The notes under the pieces were generated by a model. It did not search any database. It was not told where the DNA came from and saw only the letters and a list, made by a program, of their open reading frames with translations. A DNA stretch of 22,482 bases from the IMG/VR virus record IMGVR_UViG_3300050821_001102, positions 1 through 22,482 of that record. One strand, given 5' to 3'. This DNA comes from a virus. Positions 1,357-14,405 of the stretch are shown piece by piece. Within the stretch, counting starts at the first letter, position 1. Each line of letters begins with the position of its first letter. The translations under genes were made by a program, and so were the position numbers.

Positions 1357-1385
1357 TTGAAAACCCACATTTTACGCCGTAAAGA
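1357..1385 (+). promoter_or_regulatory. Weak promoter-like element with palindromic operator
   Basis: TTGAAA (1357-1362) is followed after 17 bases by TAAAGA (1380-1385). The -35 match is good and the -10 match is poor. A perfect 6-bp palindrome with one central base, TTTACG-C-CGTAAA (1371-1383), lies across the spacer and -10, where a repressor would block polymerase. It would drive the genes beginning at 1472. This is a reading by eye only. Confidence 0.25.
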
Positions 1386-1428
1386 ATGCACCGGGGCATG
1401 CCTCGGCCTGCCTGCACACCTGATTGAC

Positions 1429-1447
1429 CTTATACGACCCTTATACG
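1429..1447. repeat. Direct repeat pair CTTATACG, 11 bp apart
   Basis: CTTATACG occurs at 1429-1436 and 1440-1447, just before the gene starting at 1472. It is a variant of the pair at 1221-1239, so four copies of CTTATA(T/C) frame a non-coding stretch of about 190 bases. Confidence 0.5.
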
Positions 1448-1451
1448 CAAA

Positions 1452-1462
1452 CCCACCAAGGA
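1452..1462 (+). promoter_or_regulatory. Shared leader motif CCCACCAAGGA (copy 1)
   Basis: The 11-mer CCCACCAAGGA includes the AAGGA ribosome binding site and ends nine bases before the ATG at 1472. Identical copies precede the genes at 1971 and 2929. Confidence 0.7.
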
Positions 1463-1471
1463 ACCAAACCA

Positions 1472-1660
1472 ATGACCAAGACGAAGACCCAGACCACCAA
1501 GCCAGTCAGCCGGGAAGACCTGGAAAAGCTGGCTTGCCTGCTGGATGACTTGATCTGCCGTGCGGATGAAGCCGGCCAGGACAAGCTGTCTGACAAGTTG
1601 AATGATGCCTGCGACTCCCTGCAAGGCGCAATCGACTACGAACTGACTACTGCTGCCTGA
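1472..1660 (+). CDS. Small acidic helical protein (62 aa)
   Basis: The ATG at 1472 was chosen over a longer upstream reading because CCCACCAAGGA sits at the right spacing. The product has a Thr/Lys-rich start (MTKTKTQTTKPVS) and then one acidic, probably helical body (REDLEKLACLLDDLICRADEAGQDKLSDKLNDACDSLQGAIDYEL). Three Cys are spread through the helices. No family is recognised. The helical hairpin look and small size fit a phage regulator or anti-host peptide, but nothing here proves it. It is followed after 12 bases by the gene at 1673. Confidence 0.7.
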   Translation: MTKTKTQTTKPVSREDLEKLACLLDDLICRADEAGQDKLSDKLNDACDSLQGAIDYELTTAA

Positions 1661-1672
1661 AGGGACCTGACC

Positions 1673-1927
1673 ATGGACCAAGCCATGACTGATCGTTTCG
1701 TTGATGATGTCCTGTCCTGCCTGACGGCGACCTATACCGTCTCGGACGGTTCAACCATCCAGGGGCAAGCCATTAGCTACCTGATCGCTGAAATGCGGGA
1801 CTACGGCAAGCGTTGGCGCGGTCTGGGTAGCCTTGGCGACTTTGAATACCTGCTGGAACAGCAAGGCTTTCGCGTCGTCCAGGGCCGGAATGCGCGCGGC
1901 AACCATGCCCGCGTCGTGACTGTCTGA
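1673..1927 (+). CDS. Hypothetical protein (84 aa)
   Basis: ATG at 1673 follows AGGGA (1661-1665) at eight bases. A second in-frame ATG at 1685 is possible but worse placed. The product (VDDVLSCLTATYTVSDGSTIQGQAISYLIAEM... LGSLGDFEYLLEQQGFRVVQGRNARGNHARVVTV) looks like a small alpha/beta domain. The phrase 'FEYLLEQQGFRVVQGRNARGN' resembles the end of winged-helix-like phage proteins, in which a short helix precedes a final strand pair, but no family can be named. It has no membrane segment. Confidence 0.7.
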   Translation: MDQAMTDRFVDDVLSCLTATYTVSDGSTIQGQAISYLIAEMRDYGKRWRGLGSLGDFEYLLEQQGFRVVQGRNARGNHARVVTV

Positions 1928-1949
1928 CGTGCCTTCAACCTTCAACAAT

Positions 1950-1960
1950 CCCACCAAGGA
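1950..1960 (+). promoter_or_regulatory. Shared leader motif CCCACCAAGGA (copy 2)
   Basis: Identical to the 11-mer at 1452-1462. It ends 10 bases before the ATG at 1971 and four bases before an in-frame ATG at 1965. Conservation of the spacing favours 1971 as the main start. The first codons after it, ATGACCAAG, also match those of the gene at 1472. Confidence 0.7.
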
Positions 1961-1964
1961 AACC

Positions 1965-2645
1965 ATGACAATGACCAAGTTTTTCCAAGCTACAGACGGC
2001 AAGATCACCGTGTTTCGGGCAACTGCCTCGGGCCGTGCCTACCAGTCAGCCCTGAAGCTGCGGAACGGCATCAGCTTCAGTGCCACCCCGGCAAACCTGA
2101 TGGAAGGGGCAATGCCAGCCGTGGAAATCACCAAGGGTGAGTATGATGCCCTGGTGGCTCTGAAGGCAGAACGGCTGAAGGCTTCCGGCACCAAGGGATA
2201 CACCAAGCCGTCAGATAGCTGGGTCTTCAATGCCAGCCTGCCGGCTGCCAAGCCTGCCAAGGTCCTGACCGGCGCTCGCGGTCGCGTCCAGGCTGCCAAG
2301 GTTGCCGCCTACGAGGCAGCCAAGGTTGCCAACGGCAAGCCTGCCAAGGCTGCCAAGCCGGCCCCGGCTGCCAAGGCTGCCAAGGTCAACGGCAAGCCGG
2401 TCCCCCGCGAAGGGTCCTTCCAGGCTGCCATGATCAAGGTGCTCGTCAGGAAGCAGGGTGCGACGCGGCCCGAGATGATGGCAGCAGCCGGATCGAAGAC
2501 CATGCCGAACGCCCACTTCCTGAACCTGATGGCAGATCGGTTCGGCTACGAGTGCTACGCCGACAAGGCCGACCGGTCGGATGTCCTGGTCTACCAGTTC
2601 GTCCTGCCCGGTGCGAAGCCGACTGCCTACGGGGAGGAAGGCTGA
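1965..2645 (+). CDS. Lys/Ala-rich DNA-binding-like protein (226 aa)
   Basis: The N-terminal third (MTMTKFFQATDGKITVFRATASGRAYQSA...) is beta-rich and ends near residue 90. A basic low-complexity linker follows (about 94-145) with repeated AAK, AKP and NGKP units, like histone-tail or H1-like linkers. The last 80 residues (FQAAMIKVLVRKQGATRPEMMAAAGSK...) read as a winged helix similar in layout to DUF3489-type domains: a helix, 'GATRPEMMAAAG', then a recognition helix. This suggests a DNA-binding or nucleoid-type protein; it is inference, as no catalytic motif is seen. ATG codons at 1965 and 1971 are both usable (226 or 224 aa). The stop overlaps the next start (TGATG). Confidence 0.75.
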   Translation: MTMTKFFQATDGKITVFRATASGRAYQSALKLRNGISFSATPANLMEGAMPAVEITKGEYDALVALKAERLKASGTKGYTKPSDSWVFNASLPAAKPAKVLTGARGRVQAAKVAAYEAAKVANGKPAKAAKPAPAAKAAKVNGKPVPREGSFQAAMIKVLVRKQGATRPEMMAAAGSKTMPNAHFLNLMADRFGYECYADKADRSDVLVYQFVLPGAKPTAYGEEG

Positions 2646-2842
2646 TGTTCATCATCCTGCTTCTGATCCTGCTGGTGCTGCTTTTCGGCGCACCCGCAGT
2701 CCTGCTGGGCGGCGCAGCCTTCTCGGGCTTCGCCGGCTGGGCCATCTGGGCGGCGGTCAACGATCCAATCATCCTCGGCGCGTTCGCATTCGGCGTGCTG
2801 ATCGGGATTGGCAAGCTGATGGTGGCCGCGAAGAAGGTCTGA
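2645..2842 (+). CDS. Small two-segment membrane protein (65 aa)
   Basis: ATG at 2645 shares a base with the previous stop. The 65 residues are almost all hydrophobic: segment one is about residues 2-24 (FIILLLILLVLLFGAPAVLLGG) and segment two about 28-60, with a short break at NDP and a basic end (AAKKV). The layout is holin-like or superinfection-exclusion-like. Position in the early block, far from the lysis genes near 6,000, argues against a holin. An intrinsic terminator follows within 20 bases. Confidence 0.65.
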   Translation: MFIILLLILLVLLFGAPAVLLGGAAFSGFAGWAIWAAVNDPIILGAFAFGVLIGIGKLMVAAKKV

Positions 2843-2860
2843 AGACCTGGACCAAAACAC

Positions 2861-2897
2861 GAACGGCGCGACCCCGGCCAGGGCGCGCCGTTCTTTT
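2861..2897 (+). terminator. Rho-independent terminator before int gene pair
   Basis: GAACGGCGCG (2861-2870) and CGCGCCGTTC (2884-2893) form a perfect 10-bp GC-rich stem with a 13-base loop, and the right arm runs into TTCTTTT. It should end transcripts of the genes from 1472 to 2842. The next gene starts only 32 bases later, so the integrase pair needs either read-through, antitermination or a promoter overlapping this element. Confidence 0.85.
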
Positions 2898-2908
2898 CAT
2901 TCCCACAA

Positions 2909-2919
2909 CCCACCAAGGA
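2909..2919 (+). promoter_or_regulatory. Shared leader motif CCCACCAAGGA (copy 3)
   Basis: Third identical copy of the 11-mer, ending nine bases before the ATG at 2929 and right after the terminator. Confidence 0.7.
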
Positions 2920-2928
2920 TCAGTCGAA

Positions 2929-3114
2929 ATGAAGACCATCACCACAGCAGTTTCTGCCATCGAGCGCAAGGTCCGCGCCTCGCTGGCATTGTTGCAGGAA
3001 GTGCCGCCCCCCGTCCTGCGCCTGCCGGTCATCTCGCACGATGACGTTCTCCACATTCTGGATTGCGAATTACCGGCATCGTGCGAAACTTGCATCAGGA
3101 GGGCCGCGCGATGA
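2929..3114 (+). CDS. Small protein upstream of integrase (61 aa)
   Basis: ATG at 2929 is placed exactly as for the other CCCACCAAGGA genes. The product MKTITTAVSAIERKVRASLALLQEV... LDCELPASCETCIRRAAR starts with an amphipathic helix and ends with Cys residues including a CETC pair, which could bind a metal if paired with another subunit. Its stop overlaps the integrase start (ATGA, 3111-3114), so the two are translated together. It could be an integrase leader or a recombination directionality factor by position only, as it lacks an obvious helix-turn-helix. Function unknown. Confidence 0.6.
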   Translation: MKTITTAVSAIERKVRASLALLQEVPPPVLRLPVISHDDVLHILDCELPASCETCIRRAAR

Positions 3115-4403
3115 GCAAAGGATCAGACGTTAACCTGCGTGCCAGGAACGCCAAGGCACCGTCCAGAGTGTCCTTCAACGACTACTGCGGCGGACTGTTC
3201 CTGAACACGAGCAAGGCCGGAACCAAGTCATGGCGTGTCGGCTATTTCTTCAACCGGCAATTTCGCATGGCGGTGCTCGGCTACTATCCCGAGATGACGC
3301 CAAGCGAAGCCAGGACCGCACGGCTGGACATCCGTGCCAAGGTCAGTGCCGGCGTTGATCCTGTCCTGGCGCAGCGGGTCCAGAAGGCAGCCACGCTGGC
3401 GAAGCAGGGCAACACGGTGGATCAGGTTGCTTCTGACTGGCTGTCGTGGGGCAGCACGCTTGGCGGCTGGTCAGCAGGCTATGCCGTCCAGGTTGAACGC
3501 CGGCTGGCAAAGCATGTCTTCCCCAAGCTGGGCAACCTGCCGGTCGACATGGTGACGGCGCAGGACATCCAGACCGTCATTGACCGGCTGGAAAAGCAAC
3601 TCGGCCAGCATGCGCAGGCGGTCCATGTCAGGCAGCATCTGCAATGCCTGTTCGACTACGCACGCGACCACAAGTTCGTTGCCGAGAACATTGTCAGGAC
3701 CATCGGTCGTTGGCTGCCGCAACGGAAGCGCGGCGACGTGCGGGAACAGAAGCAGCCGCGCGTCGGGACAATCGAGGAAGCAAGGCAAGTCTTGCAAGCC
3801 ATGGAGGCCGCGACTGCAAGCCCCTTCCTGAAGCTCGCGCACCGGCTGATAGCCTTAACAGCGGTTCGCAAGATGGAAGCGGTGGACGCGACCTGGAGCG
3901 AGTTTGACGAGGCGATGAAGACCTGGACCATACCGGGCGCGCGGATGAAGGGCCGGCGCGGACACAAGGAGGCCCATGTGATCCCGCTGACCTTCCAGGC
4001 ATTGCAGGTCTTCCAGGCTGCTCGCGCCCTGGCGGACGTTCAAGGCATCAAATCGGAAAGGGTTTTTCCGGTCATGAATCGCTCGTCGCTCAACGACATG
4101 ATGGAACGGGTCCTTCCCCGCATCGGTCTTGACGGCAAGCATACTCTCCACGGTTGGCGTGGAACCTTCTCGACGCTTCAGAACACGGCGGACCCTGGCG
4201 CAGAGATGATCATCGAAGTGATGCTGGCGCATAAAACCAAGTCGAATGTTGCCGGTCGCTACAACGACTCGAAATACCTTGCGGCGCGGCTGGAGATCGC
4301 GCGCAAGTGGGCTGACAAGCTACTCGACGGAATGCCGACAGCCTTCCAGGTTGCCGGCATCAAGCAGCAAGGCAACGTCGTGCCATTCCGGCAGGTTGCC
4401 TAG
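3111..4403 (+). CDS. int: P4-type tyrosine integrase (430 aa)
   Basis: This is a site-specific recombinase that would insert the phage into, and with a helper excise it from, the host chromosome. The N-terminal arm (about residues 20-88: YCGGLFLNTSKAGTKSWRVGYFF ... VLGYYPEMTPSEAR) is the DUF4102 arm-binding domain typical of P4-like integrases. A core-binding SAM-like domain spans about 100-200. The catalytic domain carries the expected residues: R253 (LTAVRKMEA), K280, H347 and R350 (HGWR), H374 (LAHK) and nucleophile Y384 (GRYND). All are present, so it should be active. The ATG at 3111 was chosen over an upstream in-frame start because AGGAGGG (3097-3103) precedes it and it overlaps the stop of the gene at 2929. 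P4-type enzymes usually target tRNA genes, but none is seen here. Confidence 0.93.
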   Translation: MSKGSDVNLRARNAKAPSRVSFNDYCGGLFLNTSKAGTKSWRVGYFFNRQFRMAVLGYYPEMTPSEARTARLDIRAKVSAGVDPVLAQRVQKAATLAKQGNTVDQVASDWLSWGSTLGGWSAGYAVQVERRLAKHVFPKLGNLPVDMVTAQDIQTVIDRLEKQLGQHAQAVHVRQHLQCLFDYARDHKFVAENIVRTIGRWLPQRKRGDVREQKQPRVGTIEEARQVLQAMEAATASPFLKLAHRLIALTAVRKMEAVDATWSEFDEAMKTWTIPGARMKGRRGHKEAHVIPLTFQALQVFQAARALADVQGIKSERVFPVMNRSSLNDMMERVLPRIGLDGKHTLHGWRGTFSTLQNTADPGAEMIIEVMLAHKTKSNVAGRYNDSKYLAARLEIARKWADKLLDGMPTAFQVAGIKQQGNVVPFRQVA

Positions 4404-4720: not shown

Positions 4721-5197
4721 ATGCCTGAAGCAACCCCGGCCCAGATTGCTTCGCTTGGTCATGTCGCTGCGTTGATCCGCCGCGAACTGGAAAAGCGGGA
4801 GTGGTCTGTCGCCGACTTCCATCGTGCCATTGGCGAGGATGTCAAAAGCACGCGCGCTTATGCCTGGATCGCCTGCAAGGTAAGGATCACGGATCAATTC
4901 CGCCCGAAGGTCGCCAAGGCCCTCGGCGTCAAGGAGGAAGACCTGATGCCGCGCGAACTGACGACGCAGGCAGTCGCCGTCGTGTCTGATGCCAAGCTGC
5001 GTGCCGTCCAGGCGATGCAAGGCGCGCCGGCCCGCACGCTGACGGCGGCTGGCGATGTCCTGGCGTTCAGCGTCAATGCAGAAGGCAACGCGCGGCTGCG
5101 CCTGGATGTCACCTTGCCGCTCGACAAGGGGTCCAAGGTGCTGCGCCTGCTGCTGGACCACATCAGCCTTGCTGCTACCGAGGACGAGCAGCCATGA
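4721..5197 (+). CDS. Putative HTH (XRE-like) regulator (158 aa)
   Basis: Residues about 10-76 (HVAALIRRELEKREWSVADFHRAIGEDVKSTRAYAWIACKVRITDQFRPKVAKALGVKEEDLMP) follow the Cro/C1-type helix-turn-helix layout: 'L...REWSVADFHRAIG...' as helices 1-2, a short turn, a recognition helix around STRAYAWI, and the closing 'KVAKALGVKEEDLMP', which is very typical of XRE proteins. The C-terminal half (80-158) is beta-rich and may dimerise or bind a ligand. It could be the lytic or lysogenic regulator, but position alone does not say which. It overlaps the next gene by ATGA. Confidence 0.75.
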   Translation: MPEATPAQIASLGHVAALIRRELEKREWSVADFHRAIGEDVKSTRAYAWIACKVRITDQFRPKVAKALGVKEEDLMPRELTTQAVAVVSDAKLRAVQAMQGAPARTLTAAGDVLAFSVNAEGNARLRLDVTLPLDKGSKVLRLLLDHISLAATEDEQP

Positions 5198-5427: not shown

Positions 5428-5443
5428 AAGGAACTACCCACCA

Positions 5444-5641
5444 ATGGCCCATTACCATGCGCCGGTCGATCCTGATTGCCCGGTTGTCTCTGCCTTCACG
5501 ACAGCACTGTTCGATGATCCCATGACGGAAGCCATGGGCGCGCCGACCGATGACATCATGGAAGGCTTCGAGCGCAAGCATCGTGCAGAATGCAAGCGAT
5601 GCCAGGACTACGGTGCCGCCAACATCGAGGTGGTCTACTGA
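5444..5641 (+). CDS. Small protein with C-terminal Cys pair (65 aa)
   Basis: ATG at 5444 is preceded by AAAGGA and by a partial copy of the leader motif (CCCACCA). The product MAHYHAPVDPDCPVVSAFTTALFDDPMTE... HRAECKRCQDYGAANIEVVY ends with a CxxC pair near an early Cys/His group (HYH, DC). That could form a small zinc site, although this is only inferred from residue spacing. It shares one base with the next start (TGATG). Confidence 0.65.
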   Translation: MAHYHAPVDPDCPVVSAFTTALFDDPMTEAMGAPTDDIMEGFERKHRAECKRCQDYGAANIEVVY

Positions 5642-8658: not shown

Positions 8659-9711
8659 TTAGAGGTATTGTCCGCCTGAGCCTTGGACGCCCACCGTGCT
8701 TCCGGGGAAGTAATTCGCGCCGCCGCCGCCGGTCTGGATCACACCATTAGCCTCGACGTCGAAGTGCGGGCCGGTTGCTGATCCGATAAAGCTGACGGTC
8801 GATGCCTGGACGATGCCTGCGGAGGCTGCCACAACGAACCCCTGGGTGAATGACAGCCCGGTGACGTTTAGCGTCGTGCCGGGGAACCATATCAGGCCGC
8901 TTGGGCCGACACTCATCGGCGCGACCGCTGTTCCGGCGAAGCTGTTGCCGGTCCCTGTCAGCGTCACCACCGATCCATTGGCGCATGAGATTTGATAAGC
9001 GCATGAGAGGAACCGGCAATTTTGCACATCGACCCACGCGGCGCTGTTCAGCGATAGGCCGTGCCCCTGGTTTTGATAGATATTATTGATGTTGCCGGTC
9101 GCGGTGAAGGTGATGCCATTGATGGAAAGCTGGCAGCGCAACACGGCGAGACAGTTCGCTGTGGTCGCGTTTAAGATGACGTTGCCCGGTTGGTTGGGAT
9201 TACCGATGATCCTAAGACCGCCTTGGGGCATCCCGAATGGTTGTCCATAAGCCACCCCCTCCCAGCCTCCGACAACCGTGTTGGCATTGTAAGTGCCATC
9301 CGCGAGTTGGATCGTGCCGTCATGACCGTCCCAGTCGAAACGATTATAAACCGCGCTGATGGCAGCCTGAAAGGTCTTCAGCGCGGTCCCTGTGGTCAGA
9401 CCGTCATTCGTGTCGCTGCCAGTCGTGGGGTTGACATAGATCGTCGTATCCTGCGTCACCAGCGCCCGGTAAATGAACAGCTTCTGGAGTGCTTGCAGGA
9501 GTTGCGTATTGTCGGTCTTGTTCAGCACCAACCCCGACTCTTCAATGACGTGCGACAATTCCTCTTGCAGCGCGTTCATAAACTCATAACGGACCACGGT
9601 CGCGGCGAAGCCGCTCGATCCTGGCGAGCCTCCAGTGAAGAATCCCGGCGTGCCTTGCGGGCGTGGTGCCGGCAGCGTGGGGGAGGCAGTCGGATCGTCA
9701 ATGCGGTGCAT
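8659..9711 (-). CDS. Tail fibre/spike with beta-helix body (350 aa)
   Basis: The first 80 residues (MHRIDDPTASPTLPAPRPQG ... GFFTGGSPG ... EFMNALQEELSHVIEESGLVLNKTDNTQLLQALQ) are the standard N-terminal attachment region of phage fibre proteins. From about residue 88 (TTIYVNPTTGSDTNDGLTTGTALKTFQAAISAVYNRFDWDG..TIQLADGTYNAN) the sequence turns into a pectate-lyase-like right-handed beta-helix, with repeated short strands through the end. Such bodies bind or sometimes cut surface polysaccharide. No catalytic residues can be named here. With the gene at 7085-8359 it gives the phage two candidate receptor-binding proteins. RBS GGAG precedes the ATG at 9711. Confidence 0.83.
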   Translation of the reverse strand: MHRIDDPTASPTLPAPRPQGTPGFFTGGSPGSSGFAATVVRYEFMNALQEELSHVIEESGLVLNKTDNTQLLQALQKLFIYRALVTQDTTIYVNPTTGSDTNDGLTTGTALKTFQAAISAVYNRFDWDGHDGTIQLADGTYNANTVVGGWEGVAYGQPFGMPQGGLRIIGNPNQPGNVILNATTANCLAVLRCQLSINGITFTATGNINNIYQNQGHGLSLNSAAWVDVQNCRFLSCAYQISCANGSVVTLTGTGNSFAGTAVAPMSVGPSGLIWFPGTTLNVTGLSFTQGFVVAASAGIVQASTVSFIGSATGPHFDVEANGVIQTGGGGANYFPGSTVGVQGSGGQYL

Positions 9712-11497: not shown

Positions 11498-12094
11498 TCA
11501 GGTCACCCCTACACGTCGCAGTGTGATGGCTGTTGGCGGCGGCACTTGCATGGGCGATGCCAGCACCGCCAAGCCCTGCCATGCCCAGGCGAAGCGAAAG
11601 CGTGTCATGCTGCCATCCGGCTTGACGATGGCGATGCCGATCCCGAGTGCGGTTGATCCTGCTGCGTTGCCGAGCCAGGAGGTGTTGACGATGACCTGCT
11701 TTGCGATGCCGTCAGTTACCAGCCACTGCAAGGCATCTTGGGCATAGCGTTGTGCAAGGCCCAGCGTGTCACGCGTCTTCTTCGCGCGTTCCAGTTGCCA
11801 GAGGTTCGACCCCAGCGGCGCGTCGTTGTAAGGATCAGCCCACCAGCCGCGCCGGTCTGACGTTCCATCCGTTGGCACGAAGTCAGGCGTTGCCTGCTTG
11901 TCAGTGAACAGGGAGACGAGACACGCTGTCTCCAGGTCCTGGCCGGTCTGCAAGTCACCCTGCGCCAGTTGCCAGTCGCCTTCGGCGTTGACGTTATCCC
12001 ATGCAATGAAGACATCGCCTGTGCAATTGGCAGGCGGCGGCAGCATGCCGTCCGAGATCACCGGCAGGCCGATGTCTTCAATCCAGCCGGTCAT
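11498..12094 (-). CDS. Mu gp46-like baseplate protein (198 aa)
   Basis: The product has the gp46 family blocks: an N-terminal '[62 protein letters not shown]' and then '[41 protein letters not shown]'. In Mu-like tails it is part of the baseplate wedge, comparable to T4 gp25/P2 gpW in position. The ATG at 12094 was chosen over 12109 because it overlaps the upstream stop by ATGA (12091-12094). Confidence 0.93.
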
Positions 12095-13212
12095 GCGCCA
12101 AGGTCCCACTGCGATGCGCCGAGCTTCGCCTGAAGCGCAGCAATGGCGGCGTCCACGTATTGCTTGGTGGCTGCTTGCATTGCCGTTGCCGGATCAGCCG
12201 CCAGCACCAGCGGGCCGGTCAGCGTGCCGCCCGATACAGGCAGCACTTGTGTCCAGGCAGCATTCAACCGGCCATACGTGTGACCATCAGACGCCGCGTC
12301 GGTGATCCCTGGCCCCTGTGGTCCGGTTGCGCCCTGCGGCCCCTGCGGGCCGGTCAGTCCGATCGGCCCCTGTGGTCCAGTCGGTCCTGTCGGGCCTTCA
12401 GGACCTGGAACCGTTGAGTCTGCCCCAGCCGGTCCCTGTGGTCCGGTCGCTCCGGTCGCTCCAGTCGTGCCCTGCGGGCCTTGCGGTCCTGGCGGGCCTT
12501 CCGGTCCAGGCACAGTCGATGCCGGCCCCTGCGGGCCTTGGGAGCCGGTTGCGCCGGTCGGTCCTGGCGGGCCTTGCGTGCCGGTTGCGCCGGTCGGTCC
12601 AGCAGGTCCTGTGGGGCCAGCCGGTCCTGTGGGTCCAGCAGGTCCAGCAGGTCCTGGCGGGCCTTCCGGTCCTGGCGTTCCCCCGCCGCCGCCGCCGCCG
12701 TGCTGGTCGACGTAGTTCTTCGTGGCCACTTCATTCGGCGCGGCTGGCTCGTATGCCATGGTCTGCCGGCCCTCGACGTGCACGAGGGGCGTCGTCATGG
12801 TCACGGTGCTGGATGCATTCACCTCGACCTGCGGAACCGTCGTGGTGTGCTTGCCGGTTGCAGTGACTTCGATGTTGCCGCCGTTCGCCAGCTTCACCAC
12901 GCTTCCAGCATTGTCATGCAGCGCGACTTCACCCGGCTTCTGATTGCGCAGCCTGTATTGCTGATTGCCGGTTGCCACGATGACGCCATTGGACCTGTCG
13001 CCGGATGCGAAGATCCCCATGGCGTCTGATCCTGGCGGCGCATGGGTTGCCAGACCGTAAATCTGCAACGCCGGCATGTTGTCGATTGTCTCGGGTGGAA
13101 AGCCTCTGACCTGGACGCGATGCACCGGCCCGCTGTCATCCGTCGCGGTGATCTTCAACGGCGCAACCATCATCCGCGCTGCGCGGTAAAGCCGATCGGC
13201 TACGCTGCTCAT
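12091..13212 (-). CDS. Mu gp45-like spike with collagen-like segment (373 aa)
   Basis: Residues 1-150 match the gp45/gpV-like baseplate spike ([23 protein letters not shown] ... [32 protein letters not shown] ... [37 protein letters not shown]), an OB-fold plus a beta-stranded trimeric shaft. After a first fibre motif ([11 protein letters not shown], 162-171) and a Gly run comes a collagen-like stretch, residues 178-302, with about 39 Gly-X-Y triplets in three blocks separated by two STVP breaks. The C-terminus (322-361: [38 protein letters not shown]) is a fibre repeat. Usual gp45 proteins lack the collagen part and are about 200 residues. The start at 13212 overlaps the upstream stop (ATGA); a longer frame to 13344 is a shadow. 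The collagen part likely forms a long trimeric rod. Confidence 0.9.
12307..12681 (-). repeat. Collagen-like coding repeat (about 39 Gly-X-Y triplets)
   Basis: The DNA is a run of 9-base-like units built of GGN-CCN-NNN codons, mostly G-P-A, G-P-T, G-P-Q and G-A-T. Two non-triplet breaks with the same residues, STVPGPEGP, split the segment. The repetition gives long open frames on both strands here, which explains several spurious ORFs. Confidence 0.92.
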
Positions 13213-14405
13213 GTCTGCACCGTAGAGGCAGCAGGATTGAGCTTGTCCGCATTCGGCTTGGTCGGATTGAATTGCTTTACGTCTTCCTGCAAGACCAAGG
13301 TATTCGGTGAAGTCGGCGCAATCGAGAACGCTTCCGGTGGCCATAGCGACAGACGGGCGTGCTGCCCACCTTCATCGCGGATATAGGTCACGGTGCCGAT
13401 CAGCCAGGATTTATTCGGCAGCTTCAGTTGCGACGCGCTGATGGGTGCCAGCATGTTCGGTGCCCACAGCTTGCCGGATGCATCACGCCAGGAATCACAG
13501 ACGACGTTGAAGTTGAAACTTTGCCCCCAGCGGCGTGCCTTCTCCCAGGCTGCACGCTGACCGGCCAGTGGGACTCCCAGGATGGTCTGTTCGCTGATCA
13601 CGTAGAGCTTGCGGAACCGGGGAACGTCTTCATCCTTCACCACCTCGCCAATCATCGGCAGGTTCACCCCGGCATCCGTTCCAAGTGCTGCGACCGAGAT
13701 CAGATGGCCCTCGTATTCCGAATAGCGTTGGTCCATCGAGAACATGACATCCGCCGTCTCGACGTTCACACCAATCTGGAAACCGGATGCCATCGACTCG
13801 GTGCCCACAGTTGCCAGCATGATCGAGCCGTCTGGCATGTCGTAGACCAGGAGGCGCGAGTATTTGGTCACGCGGTCGATGATGTCCCAGACCGTCTCGC
13901 CCAGGTTGATATTGAACTGCGGAATTTGCGGCAGATTTGTCGCGGTGCTTTGCACCGGCACGCCGTAAGGCTTGGCCAGCCGCTGCGCAATGGCCAGCGC
14001 ATCGCCGTTGACAATCTGCATCCCTTGTTGGGATTGCTCGCCTGCGCTGATGCCTTCCACCAGTGCCGAGCAATCGCACAGGTCCTGCGACTTGCTGCGG
14101 CCTTCAACGCGGATGGTGTGCTGTCCTGGCGCAATGGATGACGCATACCGATCCACGTATCCGGTCATCACCAGATCGCCGCCGATGGTGACGGTGCATG
14201 GCTGGCCAGCCTTCAGGTCGATGTCAGGCGCATTCGGGTATTTCTCGGTCACTTCGATTGAAAAGTTGGCAGGTATGCCGGCCAGCGGGCGTGTCATCTG
14301 CACGCGCTGCCAGCCTGACAGGACCTGATTGCCGACCGTCAGGGACAAGGTATCCGTGGACCCTGGTGGCGCTCCGCGTGGTGGCACGCCATGCGCTTCA
14401 CTCAT
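13209..14405 (-). CDS. Mu gp44 (gpP)-like baseplate hub protein (398 aa)
   Basis: A baseplate hub protein that joins the tail tube to the spike. The sequence has the family's N-terminal barrel ([38 protein letters not shown]... [19 protein letters not shown] ... [19 protein letters not shown]), a middle domain ([21 protein letters not shown] ... [32 protein letters not shown]) and a C-terminal barrel ([27 protein letters not shown]). It has normal length. It overlaps the spike gene by ATGA (13209-13212) and the upstream gene by four bases (14402-14405). Confidence 0.93.

Follow-up and report, generated by a model that had tools for sequence, protein, structure and literature searches.

A conserved 11-base leader located just before the starts of small early gene units in a lineage of uncultured tailed phages

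A few groups of phages have, since 2011, been described as carrying start-associated repeats, to which no function has been assigned (PMC3203893, PMC11373665). The anatomy of these start-associated sequences (SAS) is described in several papers (PMC3203893, PMC12699233, PMC7302621, PMC11373665, PMC4611695); PMC4331800 concerns promoters. In Cluster K mycobacteriophages, the SAS is a short asymmetric repeat with a Shine-Dalgarno (SD) core that lies in one orientation just before unrelated non-structural genes and is conserved beyond the bases that pair with 16S rRNA, as is the leader described here (PMC3203893). The Cluster K sequence is GGGATAGGAGCCC (13 bp), and our leader, CCCACCAAGGA (11 nt), differs from it throughout and is, therefore, not a Cluster K SAS proper, for which at most two deviations were allowed (PMC3203893). 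Each Cluster K genome has 11-19 copies, usually separated from the start by 3-7 bp, compared to 3 or 4 copies at a distance of 7-10 nt in our block-spanning records (PMC3203893). About half of the Cluster K copies have an upstream inverted repeat and, by our own reading, 8 of 16 leaders here have a hairpin directly upstream (PMC3203893). The Cluster K upstream repeats may hold promoters, whereas those found here are GC-rich hairpins (PMC11373665). The Microbacterium Cluster EF motif, with ten copies, also occupies the ribosome-site position, is unusually well conserved and has linked upstream sequence, but its consensus, GGGAAAGGACCCC, differs from our leader and the phages and hosts are different ones (PMC7302621). 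Citrobacter phage Mordin, a Felix O1-like myophage, has a repeat before 8 gene starts that its authors liken to an SAS; it differs from our leader in being 26 bp long, with an SD of the GGAGA type and otherwise another sequence (PMC4611695). The letters AACAATCC are found both in the Mordin consensus and in the run into our leader copy 2 (AACAATCCC), possibly by chance (PMC4611695).

Since the sequence of the leader is unlike any of these, we do not claim kinship; the leader seems to work like an SAS. No published mention of the CCCACCAAGGA leader was found in the open-licence literature, and a full-text search for the 11-mer returned nothing about phages by title among the matches listed. The lineage adds a separate start-associated case, which has another sequence and in which gene units are exchanged behind a constant leader.

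The window, meaning the whole stretch of DNA analysed, is 22,482 bases long and is the entire IMG/VR record of an uncultured tailed phage. Its early block, including the integrase, is on the + strand, and the tail genes, among which there is a tail sheath match, are on the - strand from about 6.2 kb onward. At 12091-13344, the minus strand encodes a tail-fibre-like protein that contains an extended collagen-like run of G-P-x repeats. Among named phages, the nearest kin is Komagataeibacter phage phiKM1, at 33.8% for the integrase and 44.9% for the tail sheath. The early block holds the following features, all on the + strand:

1357..1385, +, candidate early promoter (TTGAAA-17 nt-TAAAGA), proposed from its sequence words
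1371-1383, +, palindrome TTTACGCCGTAAA, overlapping the -10 side of the candidate promoter
1428..1446, +, direct repeat CCTTATAC, two copies, just upstream of leader copy 1
1452..1462, +, leader copy 1, CCCACCAAGGA, 9 nt before the ATG at 1472
1472..1660, +, 62-aa gene, first of unit 1
1673..1927, +, 84-aa gene, second of unit 1, without leader
1950..1960, +, leader copy 2, CCCACCAAGGA, 10 nt before the ATG at 1971
1971..2645, +, 224-aa gene with a sub-threshold DUF3489 match
2861..2893, +, hairpin GAACGGCGCG...CGCGCCGTTC with a T-rich tail downstream, located after unit 2 and before leader copy 3
2909..2919, +, leader copy 3, CCCACCAAGGA, 9 nt before the ATG at 2929
2929..3114, +, 61-aa gene, heads unit 3 and overlaps the start of the integrase
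3111..4403, +, tyrosine integrase, second of unit 3, with its own SD (AGGAGGG) and without leader

A preliminary description of this DNA had reported three exact copies of the 11-mer, 9-10 bases before three early genes. All three were recovered on the + strand, with spacers of 9, 10 and 9 nt; after copy 2, an in-frame ATG at 1965 lies only 4 nt past the motif. A supposed shortened form before the gene at 5444 was rejected. CCCACCA is present there (5437-5443), but the order is reversed (AAGGA-ACTA-CCCACCA-ATG), the SD preceding CCCACCA, and the gene is missing in the relative L001. The window contains 11 copies of CCCACCA, compared to 4.2 expected. The exact 11-mer is expected 0.012 times in the window (both strands, first-order model). 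Six copies with two mismatches and none with one mismatch were found in the window, and we consider loose matches to be noise because 9 sites at up to 2 mismatches compare with a chance expectation of 6.87. Well over 100 window 11-mers occur at least three times, in a GC-rich sequence and with reverse complements also listed. Three copies alone are, therefore, not rare, and it is position and conservation that count.

Relatives were sought in several ways. With the DUF3489-like protein as query, four related contigs were found (L001 to L004; whole records G001 to G004). A scan for the leader followed by ATGACCA gave 40 stretches, namely three known relatives, one new relative (L036) and 36 others without the gene block (by eye), of which 35 have one copy of the 11-mer and one, L025, has two. 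A scan for the hairpin plus leader gave 7 stretches, among which L011, L012 and L013 were chance matches. A protein search with the 62-aa protein found no relatives, and none of the early gene block were found in phage and plasmid collections. Two scans of genome contigs found no prophage relative with the leader; the second gave only L017, a remote integrase without the motif. The distant relative L021 (integrase 40%) has no leader, and inspection of L069 revealed no copy.

In total, there are 16 leaders in six contigs (window 3, G001 3, G002 3, G003 4, G004 1 and L036 2). Fifteen are exact, and one, in the first slot of L036, has one mismatch. All 16 have the orientation of their gene and end 7-10 nt ahead of an ATG; the start codon itself is uncertain in 7 of 16, where an earlier ATG lies 3-4 nt past the motif. 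When up to one mismatch was allowed in the five whole records, 15 sites were found, all of them exact, and 14 are leaders. The random scatter set beforehand as counting against a special element was, accordingly, not seen. The sole non-leader site (G003 8810-8820, minus strand) is inside an open frame (...SEPTKEL..., read by eye). The second outcome set beforehand as refuting, conservation limited to AAGGA, did not occur either. Conservation in the relatives extends past AAGGA: all eleven columns are invariant except for one cell at position 3, and information drops at once in the varying columns on both sides, with about 10 G-poor bases upstream. The 16 copies are not 16 independent events because there are only six contigs and some are close, such as G001, which shares 1201/1290 integrase bases with the window. 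G003 is far more diverged from the window, with integrase identity at 251/425 residues, 809/1275 bases shared (466/1275 different) and 62/140 fourfold sites shared (78/140 different). Thus, recent descent alone does not account for the identity of the leader between these two.

The genes behind the leader belong to six unrelated families in a gene list and grouping of our own: the 62-aa (3 leaders), 84-aa (1), DUF3489-like (5) and 61-aa (5) families, one G002 gene (1 leader) and one G003 gene (1). The leader is absent from the structural genes of the window, and CCCACC precedes an SD at none of the 35 other listed window starts, one of which (22465) has no readable upstream DNA. As in an SAS, the leader occupies the ribosome-site position, only a few nt from the start, in 16/16 cases, is non-palindromic, and has one orientation before non-structural genes, with 1 stray in-frame copy in G003. 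It is also conserved beyond the 16S-pairing bases in different families, given the assumed 16S end. With the 16S 3' end that we assume, CCCACC cannot extend pairing. A G directly follows AAGGA in only 3/16 leaders, indicating that the Shine-Dalgarno is not lengthened for stronger pairing and that it is the other half that is kept. No Rfam model (leader or riboswitch) matched. These findings establish the leader, at the level of sequence, as a real, conserved and sharply bounded start-associated element of this uncultured phage lineage.

As a control, we counted the starts that share an SD-bearing 11-mer, complete frames being required. The count was 3 for the window and 4 for the G003 locus; G002 stays at 2 because the gene of its third leader runs off the contig. 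In the positive control, the known SAS of phage Anaya was found before 11 starts. The phages of acetic acid bacteria phiKM1 and phiAP1 reached at most 2. The 36 unrelated contigs, which are not a random set since they were picked for the 11-mer before ATGACCA, had counts of 1 in 21, 2 in 13 and 3 in 2.

Every leader opens a unit, and the window units lie between the candidate promoter and the integrase. The second-in-unit genes (1673, 2645 and the integrase) have no leader, and the G001 relative of the 84-aa gene, which comes first in line, has one. The 62-aa product had no match in Pfam and PHROG; the DUF3489 match of the 224-aa protein was at E 0.0022 with 18.5 bits against a cut-off of 29.5. 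In slot 1, G001 DNA matches the window as far as the leader and then continues with a different gene. G002 has neither of the first two genes, and its promoter-region leader stands before the slot-2 gene. In both G002 and G003, one extra unit is present between the DUF3489-like and 61-aa genes, with the leader at its front and a hairpin at its end. Four gene-content changes are fronted by a leader (G001 slot 1, G002 slot 1 and the two extra units) and two are not (1673 in the window and 2645, which is absent from G001). Changes at leader boundaries fit the trace of cassette shuffling that had been suggested beforehand.

The hairpin at 2861..2893 has a fold z of -4.3. The GC-rich hairpin before the 61-aa gene is identical in all five contigs that hold the gene (window, G001, G002, G003 and G004), and different hairpins precede three other leaders (the second of G002 and the second and third of G003). 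Some of the hairpins upstream of leaders have no T-run, so termination cannot serve as their general explanation. At 2894-2935 of the window, a predicted fold, which we note without claiming it, pairs the T-rich hairpin tail TTTTCATT with AATGAAGA, spans the start codon at 2929 and puts the leader in the loop; a similar prediction was obtained for G001, G002, G003 and G004.

Upstream of slot 1, TTGAAA and TAAAGA are kept in G001, G002 and L036. G003 keeps them with 18 nt spacing and has another palindrome, ACGAATTCGT. A consensus promoter scan of the region gave no site. Judged by its sequence words, this control region looks like a candidate promoter plus operator with exchangeable operator specificity. 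A direct repeat, CCTTATAT, occurs twice at 1220-1239; the CCTTATAT and CCTTATAC pairs are spaced 11-12 nt, and G003 has GATATC-like repeats in about the same places. Similar GATGCA...ATGCATCAG elements are found at 315-338, before the gene at 347, and at 1183-1200, before the control region.

The openness of the start regions was compared by RNA folding from -30 to +20 around the start. Of 38 listed window starts, the 3 leader starts and 28 others were used, and 7 uncertain ones (713, 2644, 22465, 21087, 20406, 12109 and 6796) were left out. The leader genes had folding energies of -0.6, -3.0 and -3.3 kcal/mol compared to -4.8 to -17.2 for the others and were the three least-folded of 31 starts, for which the random-rank chance is 1 in 4,495. 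When all 16 leaders from the six contigs were taken together, their median was -2.5, compared to -11.1 over the 28 window starts, and 15 of the 16 folded more weakly than every one of those 28. With folding from -20 to +20, the third window leader gene ties with one other start. From -45 to +35, all three again ranked first, and 13 of the 15 foldable leaders across the contigs were weaker than all others. There are 3, 3 and 4 Gs in the 35 nt before the window leader starts compared to 5 to 16 before the others, so the predicted openness follows largely from composition. CCCACC had been called unexplained. It still has no evident 16S pairing partner, but in the folding model CCCACC and the preceding G-poor stretch leave the start region unusually unfolded.

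We favor the reading that CCCACCAAGGA is an SAS-like translation-initiation element heading each small early gene unit, with a probability of roughly 0.6, and a translational role of some kind appears rather likely from the sequence comparisons. AAGGA would be the ribosome site, and CCCACC with the G-poor upstream stretch would keep it single-stranded. Such an open site could allow efficient ribosome loading on each unit of a polycistronic early transcript, and the leader probably promotes initiation on the early gene cassettes by a mechanism of this sort. Since every cassette has the same leader, cassettes could replace one another and still be expressed. The exact retention of CCCACC points to an additional contact there with the ribosome, a host protein or a phage protein, which might bring the leader genes under joint control. 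The leader is probably a mark by which early genes are translated strongly or in a co-ordinated way. That a dedicated factor binds CCCACC, such as the translational regulator proposed in the preliminary description, is possible but seems unlikely, and it is similarly doubtful that CCCACC acts as a tag on the mRNA that a phage-encoded or phage-recruited factor reads, with the early genes forming a translational regulon. If tag reading were true, any cassette arriving with the tag would join the same control. The unusually open start region is the testable property, and the shared principle, if it holds, would help to explain how newly acquired phage genes are expressed.

Another possible explanation is that the 11-mer is mainly a cassette joint, kept or spread by recombination between early cassettes, with the ribosome site only part of it. 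The gene differences of G001, G002 and G003 that begin at leaders agree with this, but those at 1673 and 2645 begin away from one, the 7-10 nt distance from the ATG in 16/16 is tighter than a mere joint needs, and eleven bases are short for homologous recombination; we regard a joint as rather improbable. It is very unlikely that the 11-mer is an ordinary SD leader without special function, repeated through descent of duplicated leaders or host preference. AAGGA is a normal ribosome site, a single copy of the 11-mer likewise precedes a start in the 36 unrelated control loci, and triple recurrence is common among 11-mers in this GC-rich window. However, CCCACC before an SD at 0/35 other starts, the sharp bounds of the block and its retention across deep divergence argue against such a leader. 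Least expected, and in our view highly improbable, is a site that acts at the DNA level, for example an operator or stoperator to which a phage repressor binds. The repeats are intergenic in an early region between the candidate promoter and the integrase, as such sites could be, but the leader is non-palindromic, in one orientation and always at the ribosome-site position with AAGGA, and palindromes that differ between phages are found at the candidate promoter instead.

L068 is another GC-rich phage contig, obtained from the metagenome that also yielded G001. It has a leader copy with one mismatch at 4777-4787, which is suggestive only and was excluded from the 16. At 4774-4788 of this contig, AATCCCAACCAAGGAG lies ahead of a gene whose coupled partner is remotely related to the 61-aa gene.
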